Below, one piece after another: positions 17,623-45,437 of a DNA stretch of 64,000 nt. Location: contig NZ_CP031219.1 of the NCBI RefSeq assembly GCF_003346775.1, positions 1,550,001 through 1,614,000 on the forward strand. Reading direction: 5' to 3'. The translations under genes and the position numbers were made by a program. The notes below the pieces were generated by a model. The model searched no databases and was not told the DNA's origin. It worked only from the letters and a program-made list of their open reading frames with translations. The DNA comes from Malaciobacter mytili LMG 24559. Its GTDB lineage: Bacteria > Campylobacterota > Campylobacteria > Campylobacterales > Arcobacteraceae. Every line of letters begins with the position of its first letter. The first letter of the stretch is position 1.

Positions 17623-17623
17623 C

Positions 17624-20976: not shown

Positions 20977-21119
20977 AATCTCAATACAAGGAGGTACTCT
21001 AGCAATTCTTAACATGTTAGTTTGGCGACTACAAAAATTGCTAAAAAAGTAATAGCATCTTAACAAATATCTAAATAAATTTCAAGCTTTTAATCCAAAT
21101 TTTTTTCAAAAAAAATCAA

Positions 21120-21756: not shown

Positions 21757-21759
21757 AAA

Positions 21760-28200: not shown

Positions 28201-28589
28201 ACAATTTGTTTATCATCTTCATCATATGAAAATGCAATAAAAGATAGTCTCCAAACTTCTGGTTGCATTGGATTACAAAAAACTGCTATTGCTCCATCCA
28301 AAAGAACTTGTTCCTTAGTTTTTTTAACGAGAATACTATTTAATGATACTCTATTATTTTCTATATCAGTATTTTCAGTTGTTAAAACTTCAAAAAAGCC
28401 CACTTCTTTACCATCGTCTAAATCACAAGAGCCAATAAATTTATATTTTTGAATATGCTTTTTTTCAGTGTGTGTTAATGGCTGTTCATAACCTAAATTA
28501 TTCTCTTCAAAACCATAAAATTTATCAAAGATAAATTCTTTGAATCTTTCATAGCTATATTCTGATTGTAAAAATTTTTTAATATCCAA
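25236..28589 (-). CDS. Large Eco57I-family methyltransferase (type IIG-like)
   Basis: 1117 residues. The N-terminal about 170 residues include a mixed strand/helix region that might hold nuclease or recognition functions (IGSCDLDDGKEVGFFEVLTT). Helical bundles precede SGTYYTPREIVDFM, motif I SIDPACGSGAFPIGLL (about 410-425), YGIDNHSIAIEITKLRAFL and NPPYMRIQ (about 609). The TaqI-like recognition region follows, with WYQYGRKQG and YRYMPRYIENFPIP. It is predicted to methylate adenine N6 in its target. It is the second gene of the helicase-methylase-ATPase operon, 11 bp after the helicase. Confidence 0.88.
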   Translation of the reverse strand: MDIKKFLQSEYSYERFKEFIFDKFYGFEENNLGYEQPLTHTEKKHIQKYKFIGSCDLDDGKEVGFFEVLTTENTDIENNRVSLNSILVKKTKEQVLLDGAIAVFCNPMQPEVWRLSFIAFSYDEDDKQIVNSLKRYTYVLGKDIPIKTAYNQLKQLQYPKFNDLINIFSVEKVTEEFYKGIISLYNDLLNRYLNYPLENQDSKIEFSIRLIGRLIFIKFLNKKNLIPNNTFDLINNYYHKVLEPLFFEQLNTDHIYRKEEFRDNRIPFLNGGLFEPLAIDFYNSSNILDIDDAFFNDFFIHINKFNFSIDENSIEDNDLSIDPEMLGRVFENLLAEINESTYESARKASGTYYTPREIVDFMINESLIEYLDINTSIDINTLKSLVNKYELVNTDYEKTELLTALFKLKSIDPACGSGAFPIGLLQKIVKLLELIDPEAEIWFNLQSKDFKEKHKSRNKNYIRKLSVIRNSIYGIDNHSIAIEITKLRAFLSLIVDEKVLDTKTNRGIEPLPNLEFKFICANTLLSSKKGLDRSIISKLYSLKNKYFDAISTEKNTIVKEYQSILELNNDKIDLCNYNPFSPTYVAEKIDIELMFDFQNKFDLVIGNPPYMRIQNIDKKISETYKKNYISATGSYDLYVVFTERALDLITEKGIVNFIMPDRWINSAFGKGLRKKAHKKIYKLISFKDYQVFNASTYTSLIFLKHNTSTINYLQLNKDLKTNIELKSFLDNITFDDYANIDYENLTDEGWILVDKNSNQILDTLRSHPKKIKDIFERIYTGLQTSSDNIYFLHDSKSISDTLISGYSNILEKEITIEKGILKPLLKGDDVIKYKDLSTSIHVIFPYIIEIEKSKEKAVLIPENEILKLYPLAYEYLKNCEDILRARERGKFNIDGEWYQYGRKQGMTGVEEPKIVARDISKGGDFSYDKNGEFYHTTTVYGYKKYPEIKEDYKFYLAILNSKLMWWYLQKVGTPLANGYYRYMPRYIENFPIPNVSNSESKLIENFIDYTIYINSSEERINNYISNEYLVKEFYEIIDAMVYEIYFRKEFKNKNISFLNLDELKLKDFNIDNNDINKEINSLYDQLNRNENKVRNNLALIDIELKDLIVPIKRAFYV

Positions 28590-28600
28590 AATATATTCCT

Positions 28601-31600
28601 TTAAACAAATGTCTCACTAAGTACAATGTCGATATTTATCTTTTTTGTTTGTTTTTTTTCTTTTTTATTAAATAAATTATATTTATTTTGTAGCTCTTCA
28701 AGTTTTAACATAATATCTTTTGATTGATATTTTTTTGAAATTGTTATTACCTCTTTACTAAGGTTTTGAAGCTTACCTTCTTTTATAGTTTTAATAAATA
28801 TTTCATAAAGTTCTCTCTCTATATATTCTTTATCAAACCATGATTTAAAAAGTTTAATTGCTTGCTTATCACTTTTATGTTCTACTTTTATATTAGTAGA
28901 TTGAACAGTCACATTTGAGAGTTCCTCTTTATAGAACTCTGTTGCTTTTTTTACATGCTCGTAATGAAACTCTTTAATAGGAATTATAGCTTTCTCACTT
29001 TTTATAGTTTTTAAATTCTTTGCCATTTTTACAAAACTTATAGGCTCACAAGTTTGAGTATTTACTTCATAGTAATTTTTTGCTTCATAGTTTTTAATAA
29101 ATACATATGATGTATCTTTTTTATCTTGAAGTTCTCTTTGTACTCTTACTTTTTTAGGTAGTTTTTGTAAAAACTTAAAAGTTTTAGGATTTGCTTCTTT
29201 AAACTTTCTAATCTCTTCTAAAAATTTCAATTCATCATCAGGCTTATCAAAATCTATATCTTTTTCAAATAAAGAAACTGTTCCTACTTGTTCATTTTTT
29301 GAGTAAATTTGACTATCTTCACCTACTGCATGGTGAAATGTTTGTAGTTTAATAAAAGCTTTTTTAGATAATTCAATTAAACTTTCACTTTGTGCTGTTG
29401 GTTTAAAGTTATATATAAAAATCTCATTGTGCTTTGTGCCGATACGATTAATTCTTCCAATCCTTTGCATAAGTCTTGTAGAGTTCCATGGAATATCATA
29501 GTTATATATGATATTACTTCTATGCATATTTACACCCTCACTTAAAGTGTCAGTTGAAATAATTACATTGTAATCGTCTTTTTTCTTAGGATAATTAGCA
29601 TCAAAGTTTTCTCTAATAGTATCTTTTAGTTTATCTCTGTTTTCTCCATGAATAGTAAGAACCTGTTTATATCCCTTTAAATTCTCATCAAGATATATTG
29701 CTGTTTGTTTTGATTCTGTAAATACAACAATTTTATCGTTTTTATGGTACTCAATTACTGACTTAAATGCATCTAATTTAGGGTCATAATCAATATCAGC
29801 CCACATCTCAACTAATTCATTAAAAATAATTAAGTCCTCTTTTAGTTGAGTTAAATAATCATCTTGAAAATCTGAAGTATCAAATATTTTAATTTTTTCA
29901 TTTTCTAAAAAGGAATCTACTTTATCTAAAAAGTCATCTTCACTCTTTTCAATCAATTCATAAATATCAAAAAACTTTGCAGGAATATAAACTTGTCCCT
30001 GTTCAAACATATTGATTAACATTTCAAGATTTCTTTTTTGTTTGAAAAGTGTAGATTTAAAAGCTACAAAAGAACTCTCTAATCTTTTTACTAACATTGT
30101 TTTCATAATATCAGCAAGACTTAATGCACTTTTTTCAAAAAATCCCTCTTGAACATCACCATATTTTTTTTGCCCCTCTTTTGTAAGGTTTGCTAAAATT
30201 TGATATCTATAATATTTTAAATCTTGTGTTAATATTGAAATAGTTTTATCAAAAGTTTTTAATAAATTATCATCAAGTTTATATTCTAACTCTTCAACAG
30301 GATTAATTTTTGGAATATTTAACCCTTGCTCTTCTAGGTCTTTTTTATATATTTCATTTGTTTGTATATCTGTTCTTGTTCTTCTTACCATTACTTCTCG
30401 TAAAATATTATCTCTTACCTTTTTTGATAGCTGTTCTAAGTCTTTTAATTCATTTTCAGATAGTTCACTTTGATTTTCTTTTTTACCTATAATCTCTTTA
30501 TATTTCTTATCAATACCCGCAAAAAAAGTCTCTAAATTTGGATGTGAATCAATAGTAGAATTTCTTTTATCTTGAAATAAATACAACTGATTTGCTATAT
30601 CTTGGGGTTTATTGTTTAATGGTGTTGCTGATATTAATATAATTTTTTTCTCATATTTAACATTTTCTTTACAAATTCTTTCTAACTCTTTATATCTTGA
30701 AGTTAGGAAATTCTTGAATTTATGAGATTCATCAATTATCACTATTTCATAATCTTCTGTATCTTTAATCTTTTCTAATGCACCATAAGATTTAAAATCA
30801 AAATGCCTAATACTTCCTATTTGAAATTTCTTAAATGTTTCCTTCCACTCTTTTTCAATAGAAGGTGGTGCAATAATTAATATCTGTCCTTTTGTTTCAA
30901 AACATAAGTTCTTTACAATCATTGCACTTGTAATAGTTTTTCCAAGTCCAACAACATCTGATAAAAAGAAACCGTTATGCTTTTTTATTTTAGATAGCCC
31001 TTCATTTACTGCATCTATTTGATAAGCTAATTTCATAAAGCCTTTAGGTAAATCTTGAGCAACTGATGGGTCATAATTAACTCTTTCTTCAAAATGTTCA
31101 ATTAAAAATTTTAAGTATAACTCATAAGGAGTAATCTCTTTTAGATAACTATTTTGTTTAATAGTTTCTATATCAGCTTGTGAAACTTCAACTGATTTTG
31201 CCCATAAATCATTGAATTCATTTAATGCAAATTCAATATCATCACTATATTTTAGTTCAACATTGAACTCATAATTTTTTGATAGTCCATTCTCTGTTAA
31301 ATTTGAACTACCAGTTATAACTGAACCCCTATACTCAGTTGAATTATCATGTCTTTTTATTTCATTTTCTCTAAGTATATATATTTTAGAGTGAATATTT
31401 TTATCTTGTGATATCCTAATTTCTAGTCTATCCTCTGCAATTAACTTAATAAATTGATTAACACTTTCATCTATTTGCTGAGAATAATCTTCTTTTGATA
31501 ATACATCTTTTTGGTTGTTTATAAACTCTTGACTAAATTTTTCATATTCTAATGAATTAAATTTCTTACCTCTTGCTTGGGCATCATATGTTAGCTTGTC

Positions 31601-31789
31601 AATATTTATACCAACTAATATTCTAATTTTGTCTATATCATTCAATAAACTGGCAATCTTTTTAAAACCACTAATTCTAAAATAACCAATTAAAAATTCT
31701 AAGTTTTTAATATCATAATGCGTGAGTATATCTTTTAATCTATTTTCTAATGTATTTGTATCTTGATTTGTAAAAAACTTTGAACTCAT
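28601..31789 (-). CDS. SNF2-family helicase with N-terminal phospholipase-D-type domain
   Basis: 1062 residues. The N-terminal PLD-like nuclease half-site has HSKIYIL (about 130) and GSSNLTENG (about 160). The SF2/SNF2 motor has FFLSDVVGLGKTITSAMI (Walker A, about 270), IIDESHKFKN (about 350), LISATPLNN (about 383) and the C-terminal motifs STDTLSEGVN and QRIGRINRIGT (about 744-783). It is likely the DNA-translocating component of an anti-phage system, with the methylase and ATPase encoded next. It is the first gene of the operon. A PLD domain fused to a helicase also occurs in DISARM-like and orphan restriction helicases. Confidence 0.9.
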   Translation of the reverse strand: MSSKFFTNQDTNTLENRLKDILTHYDIKNLEFLIGYFRISGFKKIASLLNDIDKIRILVGINIDKLTYDAQARGKKFNSLEYEKFSQEFINNQKDVLSKEDYSQQIDESVNQFIKLIAEDRLEIRISQDKNIHSKIYILRENEIKRHDNSTEYRGSVITGSSNLTENGLSKNYEFNVELKYSDDIEFALNEFNDLWAKSVEVSQADIETIKQNSYLKEITPYELYLKFLIEHFEERVNYDPSVAQDLPKGFMKLAYQIDAVNEGLSKIKKHNGFFLSDVVGLGKTITSAMIVKNLCFETKGQILIIAPPSIEKEWKETFKKFQIGSIRHFDFKSYGALEKIKDTEDYEIVIIDESHKFKNFLTSRYKELERICKENVKYEKKIILISATPLNNKPQDIANQLYLFQDKRNSTIDSHPNLETFFAGIDKKYKEIIGKKENQSELSENELKDLEQLSKKVRDNILREVMVRRTRTDIQTNEIYKKDLEEQGLNIPKINPVEELEYKLDDNLLKTFDKTISILTQDLKYYRYQILANLTKEGQKKYGDVQEGFFEKSALSLADIMKTMLVKRLESSFVAFKSTLFKQKRNLEMLINMFEQGQVYIPAKFFDIYELIEKSEDDFLDKVDSFLENEKIKIFDTSDFQDDYLTQLKEDLIIFNELVEMWADIDYDPKLDAFKSVIEYHKNDKIVVFTESKQTAIYLDENLKGYKQVLTIHGENRDKLKDTIRENFDANYPKKKDDYNVIISTDTLSEGVNMHRSNIIYNYDIPWNSTRLMQRIGRINRIGTKHNEIFIYNFKPTAQSESLIELSKKAFIKLQTFHHAVGEDSQIYSKNEQVGTVSLFEKDIDFDKPDDELKFLEEIRKFKEANPKTFKFLQKLPKKVRVQRELQDKKDTSYVFIKNYEAKNYYEVNTQTCEPISFVKMAKNLKTIKSEKAIIPIKEFHYEHVKKATEFYKEELSNVTVQSTNIKVEHKSDKQAIKLFKSWFDKEYIERELYEIFIKTIKEGKLQNLSKEVITISKKYQSKDIMLKLEELQNKYNLFNKKEKKQTKKINIDIVLSETFV

Positions 31790-31882
31790 TGCTTCTTTAA
31801 CTTTCTTGTAATCTATATAAAATATATATTTTATCTAATAACTCTAAAAATTTAAATGAAGAGACATACTTATTTTTAATAT

Positions 31883-32992
31883 TTATATATCCATTAAACT
31901 TTTTATCAAACTATCCACATGCTTTTCACCACTACTTTTACTTAATTTTGCATATCTCATAGTTGCATTTATATCATTATGATTCATAAGTTTTTTGATT
32001 GTAAGGATTGGTGTTTCATTTATAGCTAGTTGACTTGCAAATGTATGTCTTAGTGTATGAATAGTTACTTTGTTTAATGGTTCAATTCCCTCTGGATTAA
32101 AAAGAATATCAAATATAGGTTGCAATTTTCTATAGTAGTATTGATTTGTATAATTTTGATTTTTTGTAGTTTTAAATAAATAGTCATCTTTTTTAATATT
32201 TGAATCAGCTATGAACTTTTCTATTTCATTCTTAAGTTCATCATTTACAAATCCATAGTACTCACTGCTATTTTTAAAATCATACAATTTTATAGTACCA
32301 TTTAATTTAATATCTGATACTTTGATATTACAAATAGTTTGTAATCTTCCACCTGTTGCTAAACTCAACATTACAAAATAATAAGCTGTTTTATCATTTT
32401 TTATCGTATCTATCAATTTCTTAATTTCATCAATTTCTAAATATCTTAACCTTGAGTTATCTACTTTTTGTTTTTTTATTCCTTTGCAAGGATTTTTTTC
32501 AAGAATTTCATTTTCTATCGCCCAAATAAATATTGCTCCAACTTGTTGCATTATAAAATTCACAGTCGCAGGCATAAGATCTTTTTGAATTTCGACTTGA
32601 AAGTTTTCCATATCAGCTTTTGTTATTATTTTTACAGCCTTAGTACCAATAAAGTGTTCATTTAATCTATTTTCTACTCTTGATCTTGTTTTTTTATTTT
32701 GTTTGTTATAAAGCTCTTTATAATCATAAAACTCTTTTGCAAGTTCTAATAGTGTCTTAGAATTTTTTTTAGATGCTATATGAGGTAGTTCTTCTCCCAA
32801 TCTTTGCTTTGTAACTATTTCATTTCTCTTTTGATGGCAGAATGCTTCTCTTATACCCTCACTATGTAAGCCTATTTTTAGCCAAACTTTTTTATCATCA
32901 ACTTTATAAGTTATATCATACGACTTATCACCATTACTTAGCTCTCTATAATAAACACCAGGGTACTTTTTAGATTTTATTCTTTGTGCCAT
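31883..32992 (-). CDS. Tyrosine-type site-specific recombinase (island integrase)
   Basis: 369 residues. An N-terminal arm-binding domain (DUF4102-like, KYPGVYYRELSNGDKSYDI) precedes a core-binding SAM-like domain (about 85-170). The catalytic domain has Arg in TGGRLQTI (about 212), HTLRH (about 312), the His in MNHND (about 336) and the nucleophile Tyr in MRYAKLS (about 347). It would integrate and excise the element at the aroE 3' end. It reads inward from attR, which lies about 190 bp upstream of its start. A tail fragment of a related integrase survives at 45221-45297. Confidence 0.95.
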   Translation of the reverse strand: MAQRIKSKKYPGVYYRELSNGDKSYDITYKVDDKKVWLKIGLHSEGIREAFCHQKRNEIVTKQRLGEELPHIASKKNSKTLLELAKEFYDYKELYNKQNKKTRSRVENRLNEHFIGTKAVKIITKADMENFQVEIQKDLMPATVNFIMQQVGAIFIWAIENEILEKNPCKGIKKQKVDNSRLRYLEIDEIKKLIDTIKNDKTAYYFVMLSLATGGRLQTICNIKVSDIKLNGTIKLYDFKNSSEYYGFVNDELKNEIEKFIADSNIKKDDYLFKTTKNQNYTNQYYYRKLQPIFDILFNPEGIEPLNKVTIHTLRHTFASQLAINETPILTIKKLMNHNDINATMRYAKLSKSSGEKHVDSLIKSLMDI

Positions 32993-33031
32993 AATTTTAC
33001 CTACTTTTTATGCTACCCCAATAGGTTATTT

Positions 33032-33050
33032 TAGCTACCTTATAGCTACC
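33032..33050 (+). repeat. Right-end integrase arm repeats
   Basis: TAGCTACC occurs twice with 11-bp spacing, matching the left-end block at 15105-15123 at 18 of 19 positions in the same orientation. A degenerate third copy (TGCTACCCC) lies at about 33011. Confidence 0.6.
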
Positions 33051-33085
33051 CTAGAAGTGTATAAATATGTTTTTAAATGTATTCA

Positions 33086-33152
33086 TTTGTAAAATCATAA
33101 CTAAAAAATGCTTAGACAAATCCCTATTTGTAGGCTTTTGTATTTATTTGTA
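33086..33152 (+). repeat. Phased TTTGTA repeats next to attR
   Basis: TTTGTA occurs at 33086, 33127, 33137 and 33147; the last three are exactly 10 bp apart, on one face of the helix. An inverted repeat ACAAAT/ATTTGT (33116-33121, 33126-33131) overlaps the second copy. It is likely bound by integrase, an excisionase or the island HTH protein. Confidence 0.5.
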
Positions 33153-33179
33153 CTTTTATGTAAAATTAATAGTATAGAT

Positions 33180-33192
33180 GATATGCTTTTAT
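33180..33192 (+). repeat. attR core (direct repeat with 14989-15001)
   Basis: This is the second copy of GATATGCTTTTAT. The sequence to its right is the displaced end of aroE. Confidence 0.7.
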
Positions 33193-33284
33193 ACCAAGGT
33201 GTTTTAGCATTTGAATACTTTACTGATACAAAACTTGATGAAAATACTATCGAAACTATGAGACAAGCACTAAGAGGAGAATAA
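33180..33284 (+). pseudogene. aroE: Displaced original 3' end of aroE
   Basis: Translates DMLLYQGVLAFEYF, then TDTKLDENTIETMRQALRGE and stop. It aligns along its length with the end of the intact AroE (DMLLFQGLLAFELF to MRKGLRGE). It has no start and is cut off by island insertion. The two tails differ in many codons, so the island brought its tail from another strain or species. Confidence 0.9.
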
Positions 33285-33296
33285 ACTTTTCCTTTT

Positions 33297-33325
33297 AGCT
33301 ACGATAAAAAATAGTAGCTTTTAAA
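33297..33325 (+). terminator. Original aroE terminator
   Basis: AGCTAC (33297-33302) pairs with GTAGCT (33314-33319), with two more A-T pairs inside, followed by TTTT. It sits 12 bases after the displaced aroE stop. Confidence 0.6.
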
Positions 33326-33362
33326 AGTTGATTTTTGATAAATTCTTTAAAAACAAACTACT

Positions 33363-33455
33363 GACTATATCTCATATTTTAACAAACATATATCAATCAA
33401 GTACACTAAATTAAAAAATTTTTAATAGCCTATGAAGAATTTAAAGATTTATTTA
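33363..33455 (+). pseudogene. Decayed fragment of the 19786-type island gene
   Basis: In one frame it reads DYISYFNK-ISIKYT-LK. After a stop and frameshift it continues as AYEEFKDLFI. These match the intact protein at 19786 (DYISYFNKPISIKYTELK, FEEFR). Nucleotide similarity runs about 90 bp. It lies outside attR and so predates or is separate from the present island. The rest of the 267-bp gap 33285-33551 shows nothing else I can support. Confidence 0.75.
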
Positions 33456-33551
33456 TAACATTTCCATGTGAATCTACAATAAATATTTTTTATCCTTCTT
33501 TTTACTGTCTATATCAAGTTATAATTTATACATTGTAAGCTATTTAATAAT

Positions 33552-35045
33552 TCATATAACAATATTACGAAGTTTTTCTAATACTTTTACCATAGCCAAA
33601 GTATCAAGTTTACAATACTCCAAAAGTGAAGTTCTTATCTTTTGTTTTTCTTCATCATCTAGCTTTGAAAGATTTTCAAAGGCATTCATAGCTTGGCTTC
33701 CATTTTGAACTCCATCAAGTTCTTTGTATGCTTTTTTAAACTCTGGAACAAGTGCTGGTAAAACGTACTTGATAGAGTAACTTCCTTGCATAGAGGGTGT
33801 AACATACCACTTCTTTTGAAAAGGAATCATCAAATCTTGTATATTTTCATTTATAGCTAGTAAATGAGTACTTAGGTCTGGAAAAAGGTTTGCTAATCTT
33901 TTTATAACACCTTTTTCAAAACTCATATTATAAGCTAATACGGTAACATTACTTGGTATATCTTCACAAAGTCTAAGAGCAAGTTCATATCTACTATCTA
34001 CACTATCCTCACTCAAATACTCTTTATGCTCCAGTAATTTATTTTTTTGGCCATCTTCATACTCTATATGAAGTGAGTATTGAAATGGTATTTGTTCAAA
34101 TGGTTTTAAACCTTTATATTGAGGAATTGCTTGTTGATAGGTTTCAAAGTCTAAGTGATAGATTGGGTAAGTTAGACTTTGTAAAAATGATTTAATATTT
34201 TCTATATCTATATAGGTAATTTTTGATTTATAGTTTTCAACAGCTTGTGATTGAATAGAAGTCATATCAAAGTCATGTGGTACATCATCTATATTTATAA
34301 TACCTCTATTGTAAAGTTCAATTTGTTTTTTACTTCCAAGATTGAAAATATTAAATATAGAATACTCAGGTATATCCCTTTGAACTTTCCAACAATAGTT
34401 TTTAGCATCACACTCATATGGTTTATTACAATGACTTCCTATATCTATATCTGGCTCATTTTCTTTATCTTCAAGATAGGTTTCAAATTCTTTTAATATG
34501 CTTGGGATATTTGACTGTAATTTTTGTACTTCACTTGTGACATCAACTATTTTAAATAATTTGTCTAGTTCTAAACTCTCACCTCTTACATACTCATTAT
34601 TTATATGAACTACGCTTGCACTTTTTATACTAAAACCTAAGTTTTGAAGTATATAATACTGAATAGATACATCATAAAGATAGATATCTTTTACTTCAGT
34701 GGAACTTTTAACCTCATAGATAGATACACCATCATCTTTTACTTTTAATATATCTACCATAATAAGTATGCCCTCATAGGTAAAAGTAGCTTCGTAGATA
34801 TTTGATATACCCTCTTCCATCCACTCTTTTGTAGTAGATATCATCTCATCATAGTTTGTAGTATATGGCACTTCCTTGCCATCAGAGAAAAGCTGGCAAG
34901 CTAAGTCCCCTACTATATTACCTGTTTCAAATATAGCCTGTGCTTGCTCATCTGGTGGTGTTAAAACACTTGGCTTGTATTTTTTAAGCCAAAGTGCTTT
35001 GGGGCATTGGATACCTTTTGTGTAGAGGGATTTAGATAGGTTCAT
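33552..35045 (-). CDS. DUF2779 protein: Cas4-like nuclease fused to DEDD exonuclease
   Basis: 497 residues. The N-terminal half has a Cas4/RecB-type pattern: Cys14 (GIQCPKALWLKKY), GNIVGDLACQLF, IYEVKSST (about 103) and a later Cys cluster (HCNKPYECDAKNYC) that could hold an Fe-S centre. The C-terminal half is a DnaQ/RNase-H-like 3'-5' exonuclease with LDFETY (about 293), AYNMSFEKGVI and YCKLDTLAMVK. It probably degrades DNA ends. It begins one base after the HNH gene, so it may belong to the same operon. Confidence 0.85.
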   Translation of the reverse strand: MNLSKSLYTKGIQCPKALWLKKYKPSVLTPPDEQAQAIFETGNIVGDLACQLFSDGKEVPYTTNYDEMISTTKEWMEEGISNIYEATFTYEGILIMVDILKVKDDGVSIYEVKSSTEVKDIYLYDVSIQYYILQNLGFSIKSASVVHINNEYVRGESLELDKLFKIVDVTSEVQKLQSNIPSILKEFETYLEDKENEPDIDIGSHCNKPYECDAKNYCWKVQRDIPEYSIFNIFNLGSKKQIELYNRGIINIDDVPHDFDMTSIQSQAVENYKSKITYIDIENIKSFLQSLTYPIYHLDFETYQQAIPQYKGLKPFEQIPFQYSLHIEYEDGQKNKLLEHKEYLSEDSVDSRYELALRLCEDIPSNVTVLAYNMSFEKGVIKRLANLFPDLSTHLLAINENIQDLMIPFQKKWYVTPSMQGSYSIKYVLPALVPEFKKAYKELDGVQNGSQAMNAFENLSKLDDEEKQKIRTSLLEYCKLDTLAMVKVLEKLRNIVI

Positions 35046-35046
35046 A

Positions 35047-36141
35047 TTATATTAACCCAATATCTTTACTAATATCTCTAATTAGCTTACTTAATGGTCT
35101 TTTATGTAAATCTTCATCTTTTAAATAATTACAAAATAAAAACCTATAAATTTCATCATCTTTCAATTTGAAGTTTTCTTTTAACTCTTTAATATATGAC
35201 TTTGTATAAATTGTTTTTTTCAATAATAAATCTAACACAATATCTTTATGTTGCTCATACAATAAATTTAATTTAAAATACTCATCATTTGTTTCAACAC
35301 TATTTGTTTTATTAAGTATAATATCAAATCTTTCTTCCACGTATTTATTCTTATTTATTTGATAAAAGCTGATATTTTTAGGTTTATATTTAAATTTAAA
35401 ATCAAAAAAATTCATTTCATATGGACTTTTTAAATTATCTTTAAAAGCATCCTTGTCTTTTTTTGTATGATTACATATTTGACAACATGGAATCAGATTG
35501 TAGAAACTCATAGCTAGAAATGGATAAATTGATTTTGGGTAAAAATGATCAATTTCAGGTCTTAATCTATTTTTCTTTTTATTGACAGTAAAAATGTAAT
35601 TTCTATTACAATATGGGCAAGTCTGTAAATTATGGTTCATAACAAAAAAATATCTATCATATCCCTTTATTTTATCCCATTTATCATTATAAAATTTTAT
35701 AAAAAATTCTTCTAATATTTCATAGAATTTATCTCTATATTGTATAGTTAAGATATGATTTAAACAAGTAACTCTAGTTCTATTTTGCAATAAATATCTT
35801 TGGTAGTCTCTTTTTTTATTCCCTCTAAAATTTAAGTTATTTTCTTCTAAAATAGTTTCTAAATCCTTTACTGTAAGTTTTTTATAATTGAAAGTAGAGA
35901 CAATAGGAAAACTAGTTAATAAATTATTGTAATTTGATATTAATGCTCGTAGTGTACTAACATCTCCTATTAATATATCTTTTATATTTAAAATTATCCA
36001 ATTTAGTAGTTGATATTCAATTCTAACAATTGGTATAGAATTACGTTTTCTTATTAATGGACGTAAAATCCTAAAATAAATTTTTTGTATATGTGTATCA
36101 CGAAGTTTTATATTTTTACTATCAATAGGAATATTAATCAT
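35047..36141 (-). CDS. HNH endonuclease (Septu PtuB-like)
   Basis: 364 residues from the ATG at 36141 (MINIPIDSKN), which overlaps the ATPase stop by 8 nt and has AAGAGAT upstream. A longer frame to 36168 is less likely. The HNH/zinc core lies in the middle: TCPYCNRNYIF, RPEIDHFYPKS, NLIPCCQICNHTKKD. Helical regions flank it. Pairing with an overlapping AAA ATPase gene is the layout of the Septu anti-phage system (PtuA-PtuB). The protein is longer than typical PtuB, so I regard it as Septu-like. Confidence 0.8.
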   Translation of the reverse strand: MINIPIDSKNIKLRDTHIQKIYFRILRPLIRKRNSIPIVRIEYQLLNWIILNIKDILIGDVSTLRALISNYNNLLTSFPIVSTFNYKKLTVKDLETILEENNLNFRGNKKRDYQRYLLQNRTRVTCLNHILTIQYRDKFYEILEEFFIKFYNDKWDKIKGYDRYFFVMNHNLQTCPYCNRNYIFTVNKKKNRLRPEIDHFYPKSIYPFLAMSFYNLIPCCQICNHTKKDKDAFKDNLKSPYEMNFFDFKFKYKPKNISFYQINKNKYVEERFDIILNKTNSVETNDEYFKLNLLYEQHKDIVLDLLLKKTIYTKSYIKELKENFKLKDDEIYRFLFCNYLKDEDLHKRPLSKLIRDISKDIGLI

Positions 36142-37999
36142 TATCTCTTTCTTCCAATTGAGCTTCAAGCTCTTTAATTCTTTTTAAATATTCATCTTCT
36201 TTATTTATTACAATTCCATAAAATTCATTATATAAATTTTCAAGTTTTCTTTTTAAAAGTTCTTCACCAACTAAATCAATTGTATATTTTATTTCTTGTT
36301 GAGATAAATCAATATTATCTATCCCTTTTGTAAGATAGTTTAATATTTGTTCTAGTCTTTGCTTAGCAAATTCACCCATAAGTCCTTCTCTCATAAAAAA
36401 ACCATGAGATAATAAAGTATGAATATTGGCTCCAAAAGTATCTATTTCAGGGTAAACTTGCTTACCTTTTTCTAAAAAGACTATATTGTCTTTTGGCATA
36501 TCCGATAATATAAAGGGAGAATGTGTCGTCAAAATAAGATGTATATTTTGGGTAAAGTTTCTTTCTAAAAACTCAATCAAATATTTTATATAACTTTTTT
36601 GCCATTCAGGGTGTAAAGTTACTTCACCTTCATCAATCAATAGTATAATATTTTCTACCTCTTTATTTTCAACTTTTAAATTCATAAATGGATTATCTTT
36701 ATAATTACCTTCCAAAAAGAAAAGTCTACTAAATTGGTATAAAAATGTTTCTTCACCACTACTTAAACCTCTCCAGCTAATATCCCAAAAATATTCAGAT
36801 TGTTGAATCATTTTTTCATATATTTCTAGAAAGTCAAAATTATTACTTTTAATATCTAACTCAATTTCATACCGATTACGAACTAGAGTATGTCGAATAT
36901 TTAATTCTTCTATTTTTCTTAATAATTTATCAGCATTTTTAAAAAAATTTTCCGTATATTCTGTTGTAGCCTTAGTATTCTCATCTATAAAAAACTCATA
37001 CCCTTTTAATGTCATACTTACATTATCATAAAATTCTTCTAATGTACTTCCCATCTTTAAACCTAATACTATATCAACAAGTTCTTCTGAAATTGGATTA
37101 TTTAAATCTTTATTTTCTAATAATAAAGCAATTACTAAATTCATTTTTACATAATTTTTAAAAATGGTTTCTTCATTATTATGGTTTTTAATAACTTCTA
37201 AAATTTTATTAAACTTTATATTATTTGAATCTTTTATTATTTTTTCAAATAGTCCTTCAAAATTTATATTTTTTATAACTAATTTCTCTGGAAGTTTAAA
37301 AGGAACAATTAGTCCATTTTGTATAGCAATAATTGCGCTTTGTATCTGCTGTATTCTATAAGAGCGATAAACTTTATCAAAACCTGTCATGGATTCAGAA
37401 TTAGCTCCTTGAGTTTTTGTCTCTATTAATTTTCTTTGATTTAATAAATGACTAGTTGATATATTTACCATATTACTATAACTATTATTTTCAGAAAAAA
37501 TTGGTAACATTAAATCATTTTCATTTAATAAATTACTGAGATAAACACTCTTGGTATTCTCCACTTTTTGCATGTCACTTACAACTTTTATATAAAACTC
37601 ATTATTATCTTCTAACTCATCAATAAAAATATAATCAAAGACACCTCCTCTTAATGCACCATGTAAAGATAATCTTCTGTTGACTTTATCAAAAAAAATA
37701 AAAAACACATGTCTATAATATATAGGATCATACTTGTTTGACAATACTTCAAGTAAACTACTTTTTCCTGAACCATTTTCTCCAGCTATAGTAGTTAAAT
37801 TTATTTTTTCTGGAAATATATTGATATTATTTTTAGCTGTTATTTTTAATTTACACCCATCTATCATTTTATCACAAGTTATATCTTCACAATTTTTTTC
37901 ATATCTTGGGAAAAAATTACAATCAAACTTTGAAGAGAAATTAAAACCTTGTTTTTTAATGTTTTTATACTCTTCAATCCAAAGATAAACTAATTCCAT
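36134..37999 (-). CDS. AAA ATPase (Septu PtuA-like)
   Basis: 621 residues. Walker A TTIAGENGSGKSSLLEVL (about 68-85), a large helical insert, WRGLSSGEETFLYQF signature, Walker B ILLIDEGEVTLHPEW (about 450) and the switch LILTTHSPFILSD. The tail is helical and charged (LKRIKELEAQLEERDND). No TOPRIM domain follows, so it is not an OLD/GajA-type nuclease by itself. It likely senses phage DNA or nucleotide changes and licenses the HNH partner. A good AGAGGAAAAT precedes the start. Confidence 0.83.
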   Translation of the reverse strand: MELVYLWIEEYKNIKKQGFNFSSKFDCNFFPRYEKNCEDITCDKMIDGCKLKITAKNNINIFPEKINLTTIAGENGSGKSSLLEVLSNKYDPIYYRHVFFIFFDKVNRRLSLHGALRGGVFDYIFIDELEDNNEFYIKVVSDMQKVENTKSVYLSNLLNENDLMLPIFSENNSYSNMVNISTSHLLNQRKLIETKTQGANSESMTGFDKVYRSYRIQQIQSAIIAIQNGLIVPFKLPEKLVIKNINFEGLFEKIIKDSNNIKFNKILEVIKNHNNEETIFKNYVKMNLVIALLLENKDLNNPISEELVDIVLGLKMGSTLEEFYDNVSMTLKGYEFFIDENTKATTEYTENFFKNADKLLRKIEELNIRHTLVRNRYEIELDIKSNNFDFLEIYEKMIQQSEYFWDISWRGLSSGEETFLYQFSRLFFLEGNYKDNPFMNLKVENKEVENIILLIDEGEVTLHPEWQKSYIKYLIEFLERNFTQNIHLILTTHSPFILSDMPKDNIVFLEKGKQVYPEIDTFGANIHTLLSHGFFMREGLMGEFAKQRLEQILNYLTKGIDNIDLSQQEIKYTIDLVGEELLKRKLENLYNEFYGIVINKEDEYLKRIKELEAQLEERDND

Positions 38000-38070
38000 A
38001 TTTTCCTCTTTTATATCGTTATTTTTTGTGTATAATTCTTCTTCTATATATTAATTTAAAAACTCTCTAT

Positions 38071-38361
38071 TTATTTTGCAACATATTTATTATATTGTTC
38101 CTGATAAAGGCGTTCAGTATTATCTTTAAATTCTTCTTTTCTATCTTTTAATGATTTCAAATTATTATATATACTTTTATAAACAACTTGATGTGCTTGA
38201 TTTTTTATTTTTTCTTCATTATATTCCTCCATCTCAATATCACTATCTAAAATTTTTTCCATTATTCTAAGTAAATCTTCTTTTGTAATTTTATCAATTT
38301 CTTCATATCCACCATCAAGTTTCTGAAACCATCCTTGGCTTTTATCAATTTTTAACATCAT
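38071..38361 (-). CDS. Small partner of the PHP-ATPase, 96 aa
   Basis: Starts at tandem ATGs at 38361/38358, eight or more bases after AGGAGG (MMLKIDKSQGWFQKLDGGYE), inside the end of the PHP-ATPase gene (17-nt overlap). The protein is charged and helical, ending EQYNKYVAK. No family is recognised. Overlap and a strong ribosome site suggest obligatory co-expression with the PHP-ATPase. Confidence 0.65.
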   Translation of the reverse strand: MMLKIDKSQGWFQKLDGGYEEIDKITKEDLLRIMEKILDSDIEMEEYNEEKIKNQAHQVVYKSIYNNLKSLKDRKEEFKDNTERLYQEQYNKYVAK

Positions 38362-40372
38362 TATATATTCCTCCTCTATATTCATATGCTTCATACCCTG
38401 CTTCTAAAGAGTTAAGCAGAATGTCATAGTTCTTTACTGTTGTTCCATCGTTACAACAAACTAATTCATGATCAGTTGGATAACCTGAAAATAGTTTATA
38501 AATCGTTTTATTATCTACATATGTTTTTTCTGTATATAAAATATAATCAGGTTTTATAGAAAGACCAACAGTATTATTATGTGTAACAATTACCACTGGC
38601 ATTTCTTTTGAGATACTTTTTATTAATGAATTTACATCACTATTTAAAAACTTATTATCAAATGAAGACTCAGGTTCATCTAATAGTAATAAGTCATAGT
38701 TTTGTGCATCTTTTATCTCTTGTAATAATCTAAATTCAGAACGTTCTCCTCCAGAAACTTCATTACCATCTTTATTTAAAATCATATATTGTATTCTTAC
38801 AAATGCTTTATAATAATACGAACTATCTAATTTATCATTATCTTTCAGTAACTGTAAATATTCAAAAGGATTATTATATTTTGTAAATGCATCTTTGAAT
38901 GATAATTGTCCAGGTATCGATTCTTTAATTTCTCCTACGTATTTAAATGGTAACTTTTTAGCAACAACTCTAAATCCCTGAATAGGTTCATCAAATATAA
39001 TTCCATCTTTTTGCATAGCTTTTGTAATAGTATTAAATTTTTTCACTCTTTGTTTATTTAATAATGTATCAAAAATATCAACACTTTCAATAGCTGTTGA
39101 TGAAGTTCTAAATTTTAAATTATCTTTTATGTCATTGACTAATGAATTTATATAATATTTATTTCTATCTTTTTCTTTTTTTACCCATAGTTTTTTTATT
39201 AAATCAGTTGCTAACGACTTAAGTTTATCTATCTCAATATGTGTTTCAATAGTCGACTTATATTCTTCATTATCAATTATATAAATCACTGAATCTATTA
39301 GTTTTTCAAGTCCTGTGCTAGAGCTAATTGTAAACTCTTCTTCTTCAAAAAGTTTTACTTTAGAAAAAGCATCTTTTCTATCAACTTCATCTGCAGATTT
39401 TAGTAGTGATTCAAGATAAGAAGAAAGTTTCTTTTCATCATTAATTAAATCAATTTGAGAAATATCATCAATCATTGTTCTAAAACTTTCAAGGTATTTA
39501 TCTACAAACAATCCTCTTTTTCGCTGCACTTCACTTTTAAAACTTTTAACATCAGTCTCATCATCTTTTTGTACTAAATCAAATTGTCTTACATATTTAA
39601 CTCTACTAAAAGAGTCTTCTAATTGATTTAATGTATATGTTTTACCTGATGATCTTTTTCCTAATATTACATTAAGACCAGTTGAAAGATGTTGTCCATT
39701 ATTAAAAACTTGAAATAGTTCATTACCATCATTTTCTGATAAAAAAACTTTTGTTCTATCTTTGAAAGTTGATTTAATAGCATTTAATGTTATTTCACCA
39801 CAATCTATATATGTTTGTCTCAAAGGAAACTTTTCTAATCCTTCTTTCATTCTTTCATCACTGAATAAAACAGGACAAAGTTTTTCTTCATCTTTCATAG
39901 TTCTTACGAATTTTTTTATATTATCAACTTCTCCTGCTGAAAAAAAGTCTTTTAACTTGATAAAATCATCATTTCTAACCTTAGGAGATTTTTCATAGTG
40001 TGGAATTAATAAATAATCAGATAAATTTCCGAAAATACTTTTTAGTTCTTCTACACTTATAGAGGCCGTATTAGATTGAATTCTATCTGATACATTTTTA
40101 CATTTGTCATTAAATGCATCTAAATCTTTTCCATCTGAAATTAGTAATAAATGTCCAGTTGGAAGGTCAATTTCAATACCAGGAAAAGTAACTACAGGTA
40201 TTTCAGATTGAATAATTTTAAACTGACTTAAATCAAAAATATTATGATTTGTAATTGCAATAACATCTAATTTTGATTTTTCAATATATTCTTTTAGAAT
40301 ATCAATTGAAAATATAAAATCACTATCACTTATAGTACTAACAGTATGTATATGTAAATCAATTTTTTTCAT
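38345..40372 (-). CDS. PHP phosphoesterase fused to AAA ATPase (TrlF-like)
   Basis: 675 residues. The N-terminal PHP domain has DLHIHTVST (5-13) and ITNHNIFDL with later His/Asp ligands (PGIEIDLPTGHLLLI, YLLIPHYEKS). The ABC-like ATPase follows: VILGKRSSGKTYTLNQL (about 237-252), SGGERSEFRLLQEI, LLLLDEPESSFDN and VIVTHNN. The architecture matches proteins annotated as TrlF-family AAA-like ATPases, found in defence-rich loci. It probably cleaves phosphodiesters under ATPase control. It is 10 bp downstream of sbcC. Confidence 0.82.
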   Translation of the reverse strand: MKKIDLHIHTVSTISDSDFIFSIDILKEYIEKSKLDVIAITNHNIFDLSQFKIIQSEIPVVTFPGIEIDLPTGHLLLISDGKDLDAFNDKCKNVSDRIQSNTASISVEELKSIFGNLSDYLLIPHYEKSPKVRNDDFIKLKDFFSAGEVDNIKKFVRTMKDEEKLCPVLFSDERMKEGLEKFPLRQTYIDCGEITLNAIKSTFKDRTKVFLSENDGNELFQVFNNGQHLSTGLNVILGKRSSGKTYTLNQLEDSFSRVKYVRQFDLVQKDDETDVKSFKSEVQRKRGLFVDKYLESFRTMIDDISQIDLINDEKKLSSYLESLLKSADEVDRKDAFSKVKLFEEEEFTISSSTGLEKLIDSVIYIIDNEEYKSTIETHIEIDKLKSLATDLIKKLWVKKEKDRNKYYINSLVNDIKDNLKFRTSSTAIESVDIFDTLLNKQRVKKFNTITKAMQKDGIIFDEPIQGFRVVAKKLPFKYVGEIKESIPGQLSFKDAFTKYNNPFEYLQLLKDNDKLDSSYYYKAFVRIQYMILNKDGNEVSGGERSEFRLLQEIKDAQNYDLLLLDEPESSFDNKFLNSDVNSLIKSISKEMPVVIVTHNNTVGLSIKPDYILYTEKTYVDNKTIYKLFSGYPTDHELVCCNDGTTVKNYDILLNSLEAGYEAYEYRGGIYNDVKN

Positions 40373-40382
40373 TTATATCCTT

Positions 40383-43300
40383 CTAACTTAATTCCAACAC
40401 ACTCGTCCCATCACCCTTAGGCTCAACCTTTACCTGCAATGGAATTCTCTCTTTTAGTGCTTCCACATGGGAAATCACACCTACCATTTTTCCTGAACTT
40501 TGAAGTTGATTTAGTGCATTTAGTGCTAACTCCAAACTATCACTGTCTAGTGTTCCAAACCCCTCATCTAAAAAAAGTGAATCTATACTTATCTTTTGAC
40601 TTGCTAGACTTGAAAGACCTAAAGCTAAAGATAGACTTACTATAAAGCTTTCTCCTCCTGAGAGTGTATTTACACCTCTTACCACATCTCCTTGGAAACC
40701 ATCTATTATCTCAATTTCAAGTAGCTTACTTGAATCACTACTTCTTTGAAGTTCATATCTTGGACTTAATATTTGTAAATGTTTATTTGCTAGATAGATT
40801 AGTTGCTCTAAAGTGATACCTTGGGCAAATTTGGCAAATTTATCTCCACTTGCTGAACCTATCATTTCATTTAATTTTATCCATACTTTAAAGGCTTCTT
40901 TTTTCTTTTCTAACTCTTTAATTTTATCTTCATGTTTTTTCATATTTGAAGCATTGATTTCAAGCTCTTTTTCTAAGCTTCCTATTGATTTTTGAAGTTC
41001 ATCCGTAGCTGTTTGTAACTCTTTTAATTTATCATTTAAAGTTTGAAGTTCTTTGTCTGTTAGGTTTAACTCTTTTTGTTCAGATAGTTTTTTTGATGTA
41101 TCTGTTTTAAGAGTTTGGATTTGAGTATATTTTTCTTCTAGTGCTTTACACATCAAAGATAACACATCTTTTTGCTCTTTACTTAAAAGTGCTTTTTCAA
41201 ACTCTTCTTTTGAAGTAAAACTATTTTCTACAAGAGCTTTATTGAAATTTTGTTTTGTCTCTTCTAATTTTGTACTATTATCTATAAGTCTTTGATTTAA
41301 CTCTATTATTTGAGAATTTAGTGACTCATTTCTTGAATTTAGAGTTACTAACTCTTTTGATAAAGAGTTATATTTTTCATAGATAATGTTAAATTTACTT
41401 GTTATCTCTTTTTCAAAGATATTTAAATCAGATACATCTAAAATAGCTTTACTTTGAATTTGTAACTCTTTTGTTTCATTAGAGATTTTAGAGAGTTGTT
41501 CAGCTTCTGTTTTCAAACTTAACTCTATTGATATGATTTTGGTATCAAGCTCTTTTCGTTGTACACTTAAGCCTTGAAGTTTAGTATCAAGCTCTTTTTT
41601 CGATGTTTCATTTTTAATAAAACTATCTTTTTTTACGACTATTGCTCTAAAGTTTTCTTCAAATTTTTCATCAAATATTAGTTCATATTTAGTATAAACT
41701 TTTGAAAGTTCCTCTTCTAAACTTTGTTTTTTAGATGTGTTTTGAATTTGTTCATTTTGTAATTGTTCTATTAAACTTTTTAGTTTATAAAGTTCTTGTT
41801 CATTTTGTAAAACTAAAGTTTGTTTAGTATTTAACTCTTTTTGAAGATTATCTCTTTGAGCTAAAACTTTTTCTTTTTCATCTCTAATTTTTACTATATT
41901 TCTTAACTCTTTTTCTAAAAGTTGTTTTTCTTCTTCTAGGTTTGTTTTAGAATCATCCATTAAAATAAAATTCAATGAACTAAATACTTGTTCTATCTCT
42001 TCTTTATTTTTTGATAATTTGTTTAGTTCTAAAGTAGAACTCTCTACTTTAGTTTCAAGTTTTGATAAATTTAATTCAAAAGTTCGTAAAGCTTTATTTT
42101 CTTCATCAAATATCTGTTTCTTTTGAGCGATTATTGAACTTGTTTCATCAGCATTTACACTTTTTCTATGATTTACAAACGGATGCTCTTTTGAACCACA
42201 TAAAAAACACTCTTCACCCTCTTTTAGATTTACTCTATCACTCTCATATTTTGCTATTAAAAGTTCTGCTTCTCTTTTATCATTTAGAGTTTGTATATGT
42301 GTTTGAATTTCATTTATTAGTTTTGTTTTTTCTTCTATATTTGTTTTTATAATTTTTGATTCATCTTTTGAAGAAGATATGATGTTTTCTTCTTTTAAAA
42401 TAAATTCCAACAATCTTTTATATTCATCTATAGAAGTAATTAGTTTTTCAATACTTTTTAATCTATCTCTATTATTTGCTTCTTTTTGATTAAAACTTGA
42501 AGTTTGAATTTCTAACTCTTTATACTCTTTATCTTTTAAATCAAACAGTATCTTTATTTCATCAAACTCTTTTTTTGCCTTGCTAAAACTATCTTGTAAA
42601 ATCTTTTCATTTAAACTATTATTTTGAAGTTTTTCTTCTATTTGTTTTAAAAGTTTTAGTACATCTTTATAATCATTTACATTTTTAGAGATTAAAGATA
42701 TCTCTTCTTTTAATGATTCATCATTTTTATTTTTTATTAGATAATCATTTATAGTTTTTAAATCATTTTCAATTCTTTCTTGATTTGTTTTTAATACTTT
42801 CAAATCTTCATTTAGTTTTGTTTTTTGTTCATTTTGAGAGCTTATTTTATTTTCTAACTCTTTGATGTTTTGAAGTTTTGATTCAATTTTAGTTTGTAGT
42901 GTTCTTACTTCTTGAAGTTTTTTAGAGTTCGTATCAAATGAAATTTTCTCTTTATCTAATTCATCTTTTACTTTTAATGATTCATTAGTTTTTGACTCTA
43001 GTTGCTGTTTTAATTCAATTAGTTCTTTTTGAAGTTTTTCTAGTTTTTCTTTATCTTGATTTATTATTTGAGTTAAAGAGTTTTTTTCTTGATATATTGG
43101 CTGAATATTTAAAGCTTTATTTGCTAAATCCAATCTAACAAAGTCTTCTTTTTTATTCTCTTTTTCAAGAGTAATTTGCTCAAATTCTTGAATATATCTA
43201 TTATTATCAGTTTCTAACTTTTGTAAATTTTCAAGCCAATTAATTACTTTTTTTAGATCATTTACTTTAGTATCAAGTTCAAGTTTTTGGGCTTTTGAAT

Positions 43301-43964
43301 TATTTAAAACTAGTGTTTTTTCAACAACAACTTCATTTGATAATAATTCAATATTTCCTAATAAATTTTCATCTAATTTAATTTCATCATTTTTACTAGT
43401 ATAAGTTTGATATATTTCTTGAGATATTTGTTTATAGATTTGTGTTCCAGTAATCTTTTCAAGTAAACTTGAACGCTCATTTTCTTTTGCTTTTAAAAAG
43501 GCATCAAAACTTCCTTGAGCCAACATCATAGATTGAATAAATCTATCAAAATCAAGTCCAGATAAATCTTCTATATATTTTGGAACTTTAGAAAGATACG
43601 ATTCTAAGACTTTTCCTGATTCAACTTCACTAATTTCCATTTTAGCACTTTGAAAAGCTCCATCAGCATTTTTTCTAGCTCTTTTTTGGCTCCAAGAACT
43701 TCTATAAACTTTACCTTTTACTTCAAATTCAACTTCACATAAACACTCACCAGTATGTCTACTCATAAGTTCATTTGGGTTAGATAATCTTGCAGTTCTT
43801 CCATATAAAGCACATGTAATTACATCTAAAATAGTACTTTTTCCAGCACCAGTTGGTCCAGTAATAGCAAATAAAGATTCATCTTTTAAAAACTTTTCCA
43901 AGTCTACTTCAAACTCACCTTTTAGAGAGTTAATATTTAGTGATTTTATTTTTAGTATTTTCAT
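40383..43964 (-). CDS. sbcC: SbcC, Rad50-like exonuclease subunit
   Basis: 1193 residues. N-terminal Walker A AITGPTGAGKSTILDVITCA (about 33-52), two long coiled-coil arms and a zinc hook EECFLCGSKEHPF (about 583). The C-terminal NTLSGGESFIVSLSLALGLS is followed by LFLDEGFGTLDSDSL. With SbcD it opens hairpins and cleaves DNA ends. It overlaps sbcD by 4 nt. Its position directly upstream of the PHP-ATPase, and inside a defence-rich block, suggests a possible defence role besides DNA repair. Confidence 0.95.
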   Translation of the reverse strand: MKILKIKSLNINSLKGEFEVDLEKFLKDESLFAITGPTGAGKSTILDVITCALYGRTARLSNPNELMSRHTGECLCEVEFEVKGKVYRSSWSQKRARKNADGAFQSAKMEISEVESGKVLESYLSKVPKYIEDLSGLDFDRFIQSMMLAQGSFDAFLKAKENERSSLLEKITGTQIYKQISQEIYQTYTSKNDEIKLDENLLGNIELLSNEVVVEKTLVLNNSKAQKLELDTKVNDLKKVINWLENLQKLETDNNRYIQEFEQITLEKENKKEDFVRLDLANKALNIQPIYQEKNSLTQIINQDKEKLEKLQKELIELKQQLESKTNESLKVKDELDKEKISFDTNSKKLQEVRTLQTKIESKLQNIKELENKISSQNEQKTKLNEDLKVLKTNQERIENDLKTINDYLIKNKNDESLKEEISLISKNVNDYKDVLKLLKQIEEKLQNNSLNEKILQDSFSKAKKEFDEIKILFDLKDKEYKELEIQTSSFNQKEANNRDRLKSIEKLITSIDEYKRLLEFILKEENIISSSKDESKIIKTNIEEKTKLINEIQTHIQTLNDKREAELLIAKYESDRVNLKEGEECFLCGSKEHPFVNHRKSVNADETSSIIAQKKQIFDEENKALRTFELNLSKLETKVESSTLELNKLSKNKEEIEQVFSSLNFILMDDSKTNLEEEKQLLEKELRNIVKIRDEKEKVLAQRDNLQKELNTKQTLVLQNEQELYKLKSLIEQLQNEQIQNTSKKQSLEEELSKVYTKYELIFDEKFEENFRAIVVKKDSFIKNETSKKELDTKLQGLSVQRKELDTKIISIELSLKTEAEQLSKISNETKELQIQSKAILDVSDLNIFEKEITSKFNIIYEKYNSLSKELVTLNSRNESLNSQIIELNQRLIDNSTKLEETKQNFNKALVENSFTSKEEFEKALLSKEQKDVLSLMCKALEEKYTQIQTLKTDTSKKLSEQKELNLTDKELQTLNDKLKELQTATDELQKSIGSLEKELEINASNMKKHEDKIKELEKKKEAFKVWIKLNEMIGSASGDKFAKFAQGITLEQLIYLANKHLQILSPRYELQRSSDSSKLLEIEIIDGFQGDVVRGVNTLSGGESFIVSLSLALGLSSLASQKISIDSLFLDEGFGTLDSDSLELALNALNQLQSSGKMVGVISHVEALKERIPLQVKVEPKGDGTSVLELS

Positions 43965-45154
43965 AGGCTTTGCACCTTAGAAACTACTTCTTTAAAATTC
44001 AAAAATAGTTCTTTTTCAAACTCTTTATCTTCTAAGTTTTCAAGTTCTAATCTTTTTTCAAATACTTGTTCAACTGACAATTCATCTAAACTTATAACTT
44101 TTAATTCATTAGCTTTTAATTGCTTTTCACTTTTATCTATTTTTACTGCAAGTAATATAAGTTCAAGTTTTGAAGCAAGTTGTCTAATTTCATTATTTGC
44201 ATACATTGCATTATCATCAGATATATGAACTTCTATCCAAGAGTTTTTATCTTCTATTTTAGTAAGTTCATTTTTTATATGCTCGTAATTTCCTTTGATA
44301 ATAACAAGTTTCCTAGAAAGTGGAACTTCTATTTCTTCTATACTTATTTCATTTTGAGTAAAAGATACAAGATTTACTTTTTGAGTATTTTTAGATTCAG
44401 AAAAACTAAGAGGTATAGGAGAACCTGAATATCTAACATGTTCATTATTTCCAACAACTTGATTTATATGAAGATGCCCTAAAGCAACATAATCAAACAT
44501 TGAAGCTAAATAATCCCCACCAATATCAATAGTCCCACCTATATAAATATCTCTTTCACTTTGACTACTTCTACTTCCAACTGTTGTTAAGTGTCCCATA
44601 GCAATTATTGGTATATTTTTATCTTTTTTTAGTTCAAGTGCTTTTGAGTAGCAATTTTCATAATAAGCTTTAATACCACTATTTGCTAATTTTTCTTTTT
44701 CACTAATTGTTATTCCACTTAAAGATTCTCTAATAACACTATCTCTTAAAAATGGAACAGCACAAACAATAGATATTAAATCATCATTTTTATTTATAGG
44801 AATAATTACATTTTCATCTTCATCACCAGTTGTAATTACATGAACATTTAAAACTTCCAAAAGTTGTTTGGGTGCTTTTAAAGTTGATATTGAGTCATGA
44901 TTTCCAGCAGTTATAATAGTAGTAATTAATGTTTTTATACTTGATAGTTCTTTTAAAAAATTATAATAAAGCTCTAAAGCATAATTTGGAGGCGTTCCAG
45001 TATCAAAAATATCTCCTGATATAACTAAAACTTCAACGTGTTTTTCTTTTATAATTTCTAAAAGCCAAGAAAGAAAATCTTCATGTTCTTCAGCTCTACT
45101 TTTCCCCATAAAATTTTGACCAAGATGCCAATCTGATGTATGTAATAAACGCAT
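43961..45154 (-). CDS. sbcD: SbcD, Mre11-like nuclease subunit
   Basis: 397 residues. The metallophosphoesterase motifs occur in order: HTSDWHLGQ (5-13), ISGDIFDTG, TAGNHDSIS, AMGHLTTVG and ALGHLHINQ. A C-terminal helical region would contact SbcC. It is the first gene of the sbcD-sbcC-PHP ATPase-small gene run, with AGG nine bases upstream of the ATG. Confidence 0.95.
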   Translation of the reverse strand: MRLLHTSDWHLGQNFMGKSRAEEHEDFLSWLLEIIKEKHVEVLVISGDIFDTGTPPNYALELYYNFLKELSSIKTLITTIITAGNHDSISTLKAPKQLLEVLNVHVITTGDEDENVIIPINKNDDLISIVCAVPFLRDSVIRESLSGITISEKEKLANSGIKAYYENCYSKALELKKDKNIPIIAMGHLTTVGSRSSQSERDIYIGGTIDIGGDYLASMFDYVALGHLHINQVVGNNEHVRYSGSPIPLSFSESKNTQKVNLVSFTQNEISIEEIEVPLSRKLVIIKGNYEHIKNELTKIEDKNSWIEVHISDDNAMYANNEIRQLASKLELILLAVKIDKSEKQLKANELKVISLDELSVEQVFEKRLELENLEDKEFEKELFLNFKEVVSKVQSL

Positions 45155-45220
45155 AAATAACCTATAAAAATTTATACAATCATTATAACAAAAAACAACT
45201 TTTTTGTGACTCTTTTTTAT

Positions 45221-45297
45221 TTATTTCAATATATTAATATGACTTTCTCCAGTATTTTTACTCAACTTTGCATATCTTATAGTTTTATTTATGACCT
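45221..45297 (-). pseudogene. Remnant of a tyrosine recombinase C terminus
   Basis: The minus strand reads IRYAKLSKNTGESHINILK and stop, aligning with the end of the island integrase (MRYAKLSKSSGEKHVDSL). It includes the catalytic Tyr. Upstream of it the frame breaks near an LGH-like motif. Everything before is lost. It is the only recognisable thing in the 283-bp gap 45155-45437, and it marks the probable right edge of an older island. Confidence 0.75.
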
Positions 45298-45437
45298 AAT
45301 TAACTTGAGAATATATATATTGATGTATTAAAAATATCAAATATACAAACCCTAAAAGAAAAGTAAGCTCTACTTTTAAAATTATTACCTTTTGGATTTA
45401 ATTATATTTCAAAAGTTTTATTTTCCATTTTTATCCT

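Follow-up and report, generated by a model that had tools for sequence, protein, structure and literature searches.

Two islands probably stacked behind aroE, the older one bearing a framed defence cassette

Several described systems resemble the locus studied here. Accretion of ICE, IME and CIME elements at one attachment site is a known process (PMC5704250), in which, as we propose for our locus, a resident element decays and a second one integrates at its att site, yielding a tandem; a CIME is defined as an element that has lost its integration and transfer genes but kept attL and attR (PMC5704250). The tandem ssrA islands of Dehalococcoides (PMC3146451) are likewise arranged in a row behind one gene, with repeats of the gene end as borders, and some of them are devoid of mobility genes. 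Papers on defence hotspots and islands (PMC10250203, PMC10121019, PMC9122126) describe, in their available parts, different defence systems at a fixed place, a feature also met here. As for the individual genes, one paper predicts a 3'-5' exonuclease for DUF2779, and DUF2779 is listed together with sbcCD on an A. cryaerophilus plasmid in one paper, which draws no link to defence.

The window, by which we mean the whole stretch of 64,000 nucleotides that was analysed (G000:C1:1550001-1614000), belongs to a genome of 3.04 Mb in the family containing Arcobacter and Aliarcobacter; the comparison set consists of 104 genomes of this family, one per species. In our reading, which we hold with good confidence, two islands whose tyrosine integrases belong to one family accumulated at the 3' end of aroE, and the older of them, bearing a cassette of defence genes, decayed.

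The present island and its neighbourhood

The aroE gene is intact (14290..15093, + strand); from about 14984 it has a 3' tail of the type that accompanies aroE-site elements in relatives. On the other side, the conserved right flank starts with thiI (58441-59907, named by inspection) and goes on with the 60045 and 60684 genes, in the same order in congeners; the stretch from aroE to this flank differs from genome to genome. The present island occupies 15094..33179: left backbone genes (15153-20976), a methylase/helicase cargo, and a tyrosine integrase (31883..32992, - strand). The core GATATGCTTTTAT is found at exactly two places of the window, both without mismatch and on the + strand: the left att core at 14989..15001, and the right att core at 33180..33192. 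The direct repeat of the left arm, TAGCTACCCTATAGCTACC, lies at 15105..15123 (+), and related repeats of type CTAnCC come after the aroE stop in other element-bearing genomes.

A family-wide search found integrases at least 60% identical to this one in 11 of the 104 genomes, window included, and an aroE 3' tail lies beside the start of the integrase gene in all 11: by this association, the window integrase is assigned to an aroE-specific family. The complete islands of the family measure about 7-19 kb, and there is one element of 86 kb (G031). Their left backbone, composed of the 19786, 20725, 19371 and 15153 types of genes, is conserved in the islands of G121 and G116, with 91-94% identity for the 19786- and 20725-type genes. 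The window copy of the former (19786..20523, +) is intact, and 91-93% identical in these two islands; the viral contigs searched yielded no relative of it. Both islands carry their cargo on the - strand between the left backbone genes and the integrase, which is the slot occupied by the defence block of the window.

Some features of the neighbourhood are worth recording on their own. The non-coding stretch 21096-21760 of the present island recurs with 92-93% identity in those of G116 (to about 21503) and G132, the G116 version diverging in its final third; it folds more stably than shuffled sequences (z of -4.7 on the + strand and -7.4 on the - strand, 20 shuffles each), no Rfam family reaches threshold on it, and it may represent a large structured RNA encoded by the element. 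Beside aroE, the congeners G002 (L090 17402-17542) and G004 (L095, just after 3040) bear scars of this element family, with fragments of the region of the 15153-type gene. In another genus, on the short contig G042:C92 (L190), a DUF2779 gene is close behind aroE, and in G088 a divergent one (45%) is about 3 kb behind it. Finally, a gene for an RTX/cadherin-like protein of 3813 amino acids, an adhesin, spans 45438-56879 in the window; it has no match in the aroE regions of five congeners.

Relics of a probable older element

Beyond the right att core, the window holds, from left to right, a displaced aroE tail, a decayed left arm, the relic of a backbone gene, the cargo block and the relic of an integrase. 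The gene relic and the integrase relic had been proposed by a sequence-only reading of the window, together with the remark that their order and orientations mirror those of the intact island, and both relics and arrangement were borne out. The stretch 33363-33455 matches the intact 19786-20523 gene with 85% identity over 61 nt and 83% over 35 nt, and a search of the whole genome with it returns two places only, the relic and the intact gene. Extended to 33323-33453, the match has 76% identity over 144 aligned columns, with an E value of 1e-21. The relic as a whole (33323..33455, +) covers about codons 43-90 and is frameshifted, with stops. At the other end, 45221..45297 reads, on the - strand and thus in the orientation of the intact integrase, VINKTIRYAKLSKNTGES..., which matches the C-terminal RYAKLSK helix of that integrase, DINATMRYAKLSKSSGEK...; nucleotide identity is 77% over 73 nt with the window gene, and 81% over 62 nt with the integrase of G031.

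The displaced aroE tail (33180..33284, +) is 74-79% identical in nucleotides to the present one. It is followed by a TAGCTAC, at 33296, and then by a stretch of about 50 nt that is collinear with the present left arm, which gives a decayed left arm at 33285..33348 (+), overlapping the extended gene relic from 33323 on. This match is short, with a score of 45: tried against simple shuffles, and then repeated against genomic windows, it is equalled by one of 500 shuffles, and by none of the 2551 other 75-nt windows of the 64 kb. TAGCTAC occurs seven times on the + strand of the window, five times at ends of elements, and in relatives with a single element the displaced tail leads into sequence without the arm repeat. 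Because a decayed left arm comes after it, the tail at 33180-33284 most likely belongs to the attL of the older element, of which it would be a third relic.

One could ask whether the present island itself gave rise to the relics, for example by a partial tandem duplication and a subsequent deletion, since they are of the same gene types in the same order. Their nucleotide identity with the present island is, however, about 76-85%, when the same genes keep 89-93% identity (in amino acids) in the islands of other genera, and the displaced tail departs from the present aroE tail, as given above. We regard such an origin as extremely improbable, and keep to an older, separate element.

Of that element, nearly all the left backbone is gone, and the C-terminus is the sole part left of its integrase. 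The interval 45298..45437, where the rest of the integrase, attR and the native aroE tail are missing, is a deletion junction, which the adhesin gene directly adjoins. The relic att core expected by the sequence-only reading near 45300-45430 is absent: pattern search, tblastn and a profile of the tail detected neither such a core nor a native aroE tail in 45290-58441. Since this old right end has disappeared, the block looks immobile, to judge from what remains of it.

A defence cassette in a recurrent frame

The genes of the block are all on the - strand. From left to right, they are the gene of a DUF2779 protein with a predicted RNase H-like exonuclease domain (33552..35045), which is the far end gene of the cassette; PDC-M62B, an HNH-type nuclease (35047..36168), and PDC-M62A, an AAA ATPase (36134..37999); the small PDC-M49B (38071..38394) and PDC-M49A (38345..40372), which combines an ATPase with an N-terminus that is PHP-like by inspection; the Rad50-like sbcC (40383..43964); and the Mre11-like sbcD, the near end gene (43961..45154). 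PADLOC identifies PDC-M62AB and PDC-M49AB in it; with SbcCD and the DUF2779 protein in addition, the block is as rich in defence genes as had been claimed. Its anti-phage role is a prediction drawn from the families of its genes.

Comparison with the other genomes shows the block to belong to a cassette type that recurs across the family: sbcD and sbcC, then exchangeable defence systems, then DUF2779. An sbcD of the cassette kind is present in 27 of the 104 genomes, and PF11074 in 49. At 21 loci, window included, sbcD, sbcC, cargo and DUF2779 stand in this order on one strand, with the exceptions that sbcC is lost in G097, that two cargo genes of G022 are on the opposite strand, and that G034 has an inserted gene. 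The spacing is mostly tight: over 20 loci, the median gap is 11 bp between sbcC and cargo, and 5.5 bp between cargo and DUF2779. The cassettes occupy several different chromosomal sites, as well as plasmids. Six plasmids of Aliarcobacter/Arcobacter carry both sbcD and DUF2779 genes; the five that were read differ in their cargo, and four of them have ParB-ParA-RelA/SpoT neighbours in common. On a Hydrogenimonas plasmid (L222), sbcD-sbcC and DUF2779 lie within 8 kb, on opposite strands and with a recombinase between them, possibly an outlying form of the cassette.

The PADLOC matches of the cargo genes include QatA/QatC, OLD, GajA, GajB, SIR2, HerA, MkoA and LmuA/LmuB, and further Ppl, PDC-S53, HEC-06, HamB, CBASS E1-E2 and effector, and PDC-S06. 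In two cross-genus pairs, the cargo is more alike than its frame: 80-95% identity for the cargo of G003 and G031, versus 75% for SbcD and 82% for DUF2779; and 88-93% for the cargo of G090 and G126, versus 76% and 80%. By these identities, the cargo is exchanged independently of the frame.

The copy in the window is itself composite. Its SbcD falls in the Aliarcobacter clade (support 100/99), in conflict with the order of relatedness shown by aroE, and its SbcC likewise (94/93); its DUF2779 groups with the genus of the window and with genus g19 (84/97), not with the Aliarcobacter type. Because its ends are of different types, the window cassette is, by these groupings, a mosaic, which rules against its arrival as one undisturbed piece.

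It is tempting to go one step further. In a speculative scheme, to which we give modest credence, SbcDC and the DUF2779 exonuclease might form a mobile nuclease chassis, co-transcribed with the interchangeable anti-phage systems placed between them and assisting these systems, which would be Qat, Gabija/OLD-like, SIR2-HerA, Mokosh, Lamassu-like, Ppl-like, Hachiman-like, CBASS-like and candidate systems; exchange of cargo between genera would leave the frame unchanged, and the window would hold such a cassette, fixed by way of a decayed aroE element. The slot indicated here for Arcobacteraceae, with nuclease genes as its borders and an exchange of known and unknown defence systems inside it, has a practical side: genes confined to the slot are candidates for new anti-phage systems.

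Proposed history and known systems

By analogy with known tyrosine-recombinase elements, we infer the following history. Each element would bring its own copy of the last 35 or so codons of aroE, and integrate at the core GATATGCTTTTAT; since the gene receives a new 3' end, aroE would stay whole, and the previous tail would be moved to the far side of the element. In the older element (33180-45297), the cassette, sbcD-sbcC, PDC-M49AB, PDC-M62AB and DUF2779, would have been the cargo, with the left backbone on one side and the integrase on the other. The present island would then have entered at the old attL core, so that the tail, arm and left end of the first element came to lie at 33180-33455. 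Deletion of the older backbone, of most of the integrase, of attR and of the native aroE tail would have left an immobile defence block. The scenario of the sequence-only reading, in which elements integrated serially at aroE and the mobility genes of the older one decayed, is thus the one that best fits the data: the aroE specificity of the 11 integrases, the displaced tail and arm, the position of the block in the cargo slot, and a junction found in G031. It is also backed by stacking elsewhere, in the aroE arrays of G087 (L166-L167), where a second tail lies about 19 kb from aroE, and of G088 (L200-L202), where there are two extra tails.

The G031 element (G031:C1:1092068-1179132; L085-L086, L105-L107) spans 86 kb at aroE, has an integrase 78% identical to that of the window and, by inspection, type IV secretion-like genes. 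Its aroE-proximal end contains a 5' remnant of DUF2779, too short for assignment to the Aliarcobacter or the window-genus type, then M62BA, and a 5' remnant of sbcD with 90% identity to the window. This block is decayed, and its DUF2779/M62B junction is common to the window (34911-38016, about 73% nucleotide identity). On sequence grounds, the decayed cassette of G031 ties the cassette to aroE-site elements, in a way still compatible with a later entry into a decaying element.

Such a later entry, by homologous recombination or another route, into a real older element that was already decaying, is the first rival to consider. The homology of the window cassette to others stops sharply at the edges of the frame (33573-35053 and 40370-45145), as expected of a unit that moves independently of its surroundings, and both the mosaic nature of this copy and the dispersal of cassettes over chromosomal sites and plasmids point the same way. 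Against it, the block occupies the normal cargo slot of the element family and shares the strand of cargo and integrase, and the cassette near the aroE end of the G031 element has the same M62 cargo and the same junction. We therefore deem a later entry unlikely.

According to a second rival, the cassette has long resided in the chromosome, between aroE and the 60045 gene, and the relics were left by unrelated aroE elements that arrived next to it and were lost again. In G125 and G126, of genus g19, a cassette does lie in this interval, in the same orientation, and the interval has no trace of an aroE element, neither aroE tail nor integrase; the DUF2779 of the window is moreover of the type shared by its own genus and g19. 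The position of the block alone consequently proves nothing about an origin in an element. Conservation of the block in genomes without an aroE-site element, which had been named as an argument against stacking, is found here for a cassette but not for this block, as the cargo and immediate flanks of G125 and G126 are unlike those of the window. Furthermore, the integrase relic is found across the block from aroE, whereas an aroE-site element would insert next to that gene; the sbcDC of the window is of Aliarcobacter type; and none of the five congeners read has a cassette at aroE, G001-G003 carrying theirs elsewhere. The carB-proximal site, which holds the cassette of G002 and G003, has none in G000. 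A long-resident locus is, in our estimation, very unlikely. A universal synteny of sbcDC with the adhesin, also raised beforehand, was rejected: the cassette occurs at many places, and the adhesin is at aroE in no congener read.

With two stacked islands as the preferred reading, the locus suggests a route to the fixation of defence genes, which arrive with a mobile island, after which a second one integrates in front and the mobility genes of the carrier decay. Stacking is an already known process; what is new is the framed mobile cargo slot, of which we found no description in the open-access literature searched.

The differences with the known systems are the following. In contrast with the accreted elements of PMC5704250, the window has lost its old right att site, and entry would have been on the attL side, as recorded by the displaced aroE tail and the relic arm; because attR is lost, the remnant falls outside the definition of a CIME. 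Unlike the ssrA islands of Dehalococcoides, those of the window target a protein gene, aroE, with a predicted anti-phage cargo, and one member of their family looks like a complete conjugative element. The window pair M62A and M62B has its best matches in PDC-M62A/B, and weaker ones in PtuA and PtuB, respectively, of Septu; the other pair matches PDC-M49A/B, and both PDC-M62 and PDC-M49 are candidate systems only in PADLOC. Finally, compared with defence hotspots and islands as the available parts of the sources present them, the fixed neighbours of the cargo, sbcDC and DUF2779, do not belong to the core genes and move together with that cargo, among plasmids, an integrated element and several chromosomal sites.
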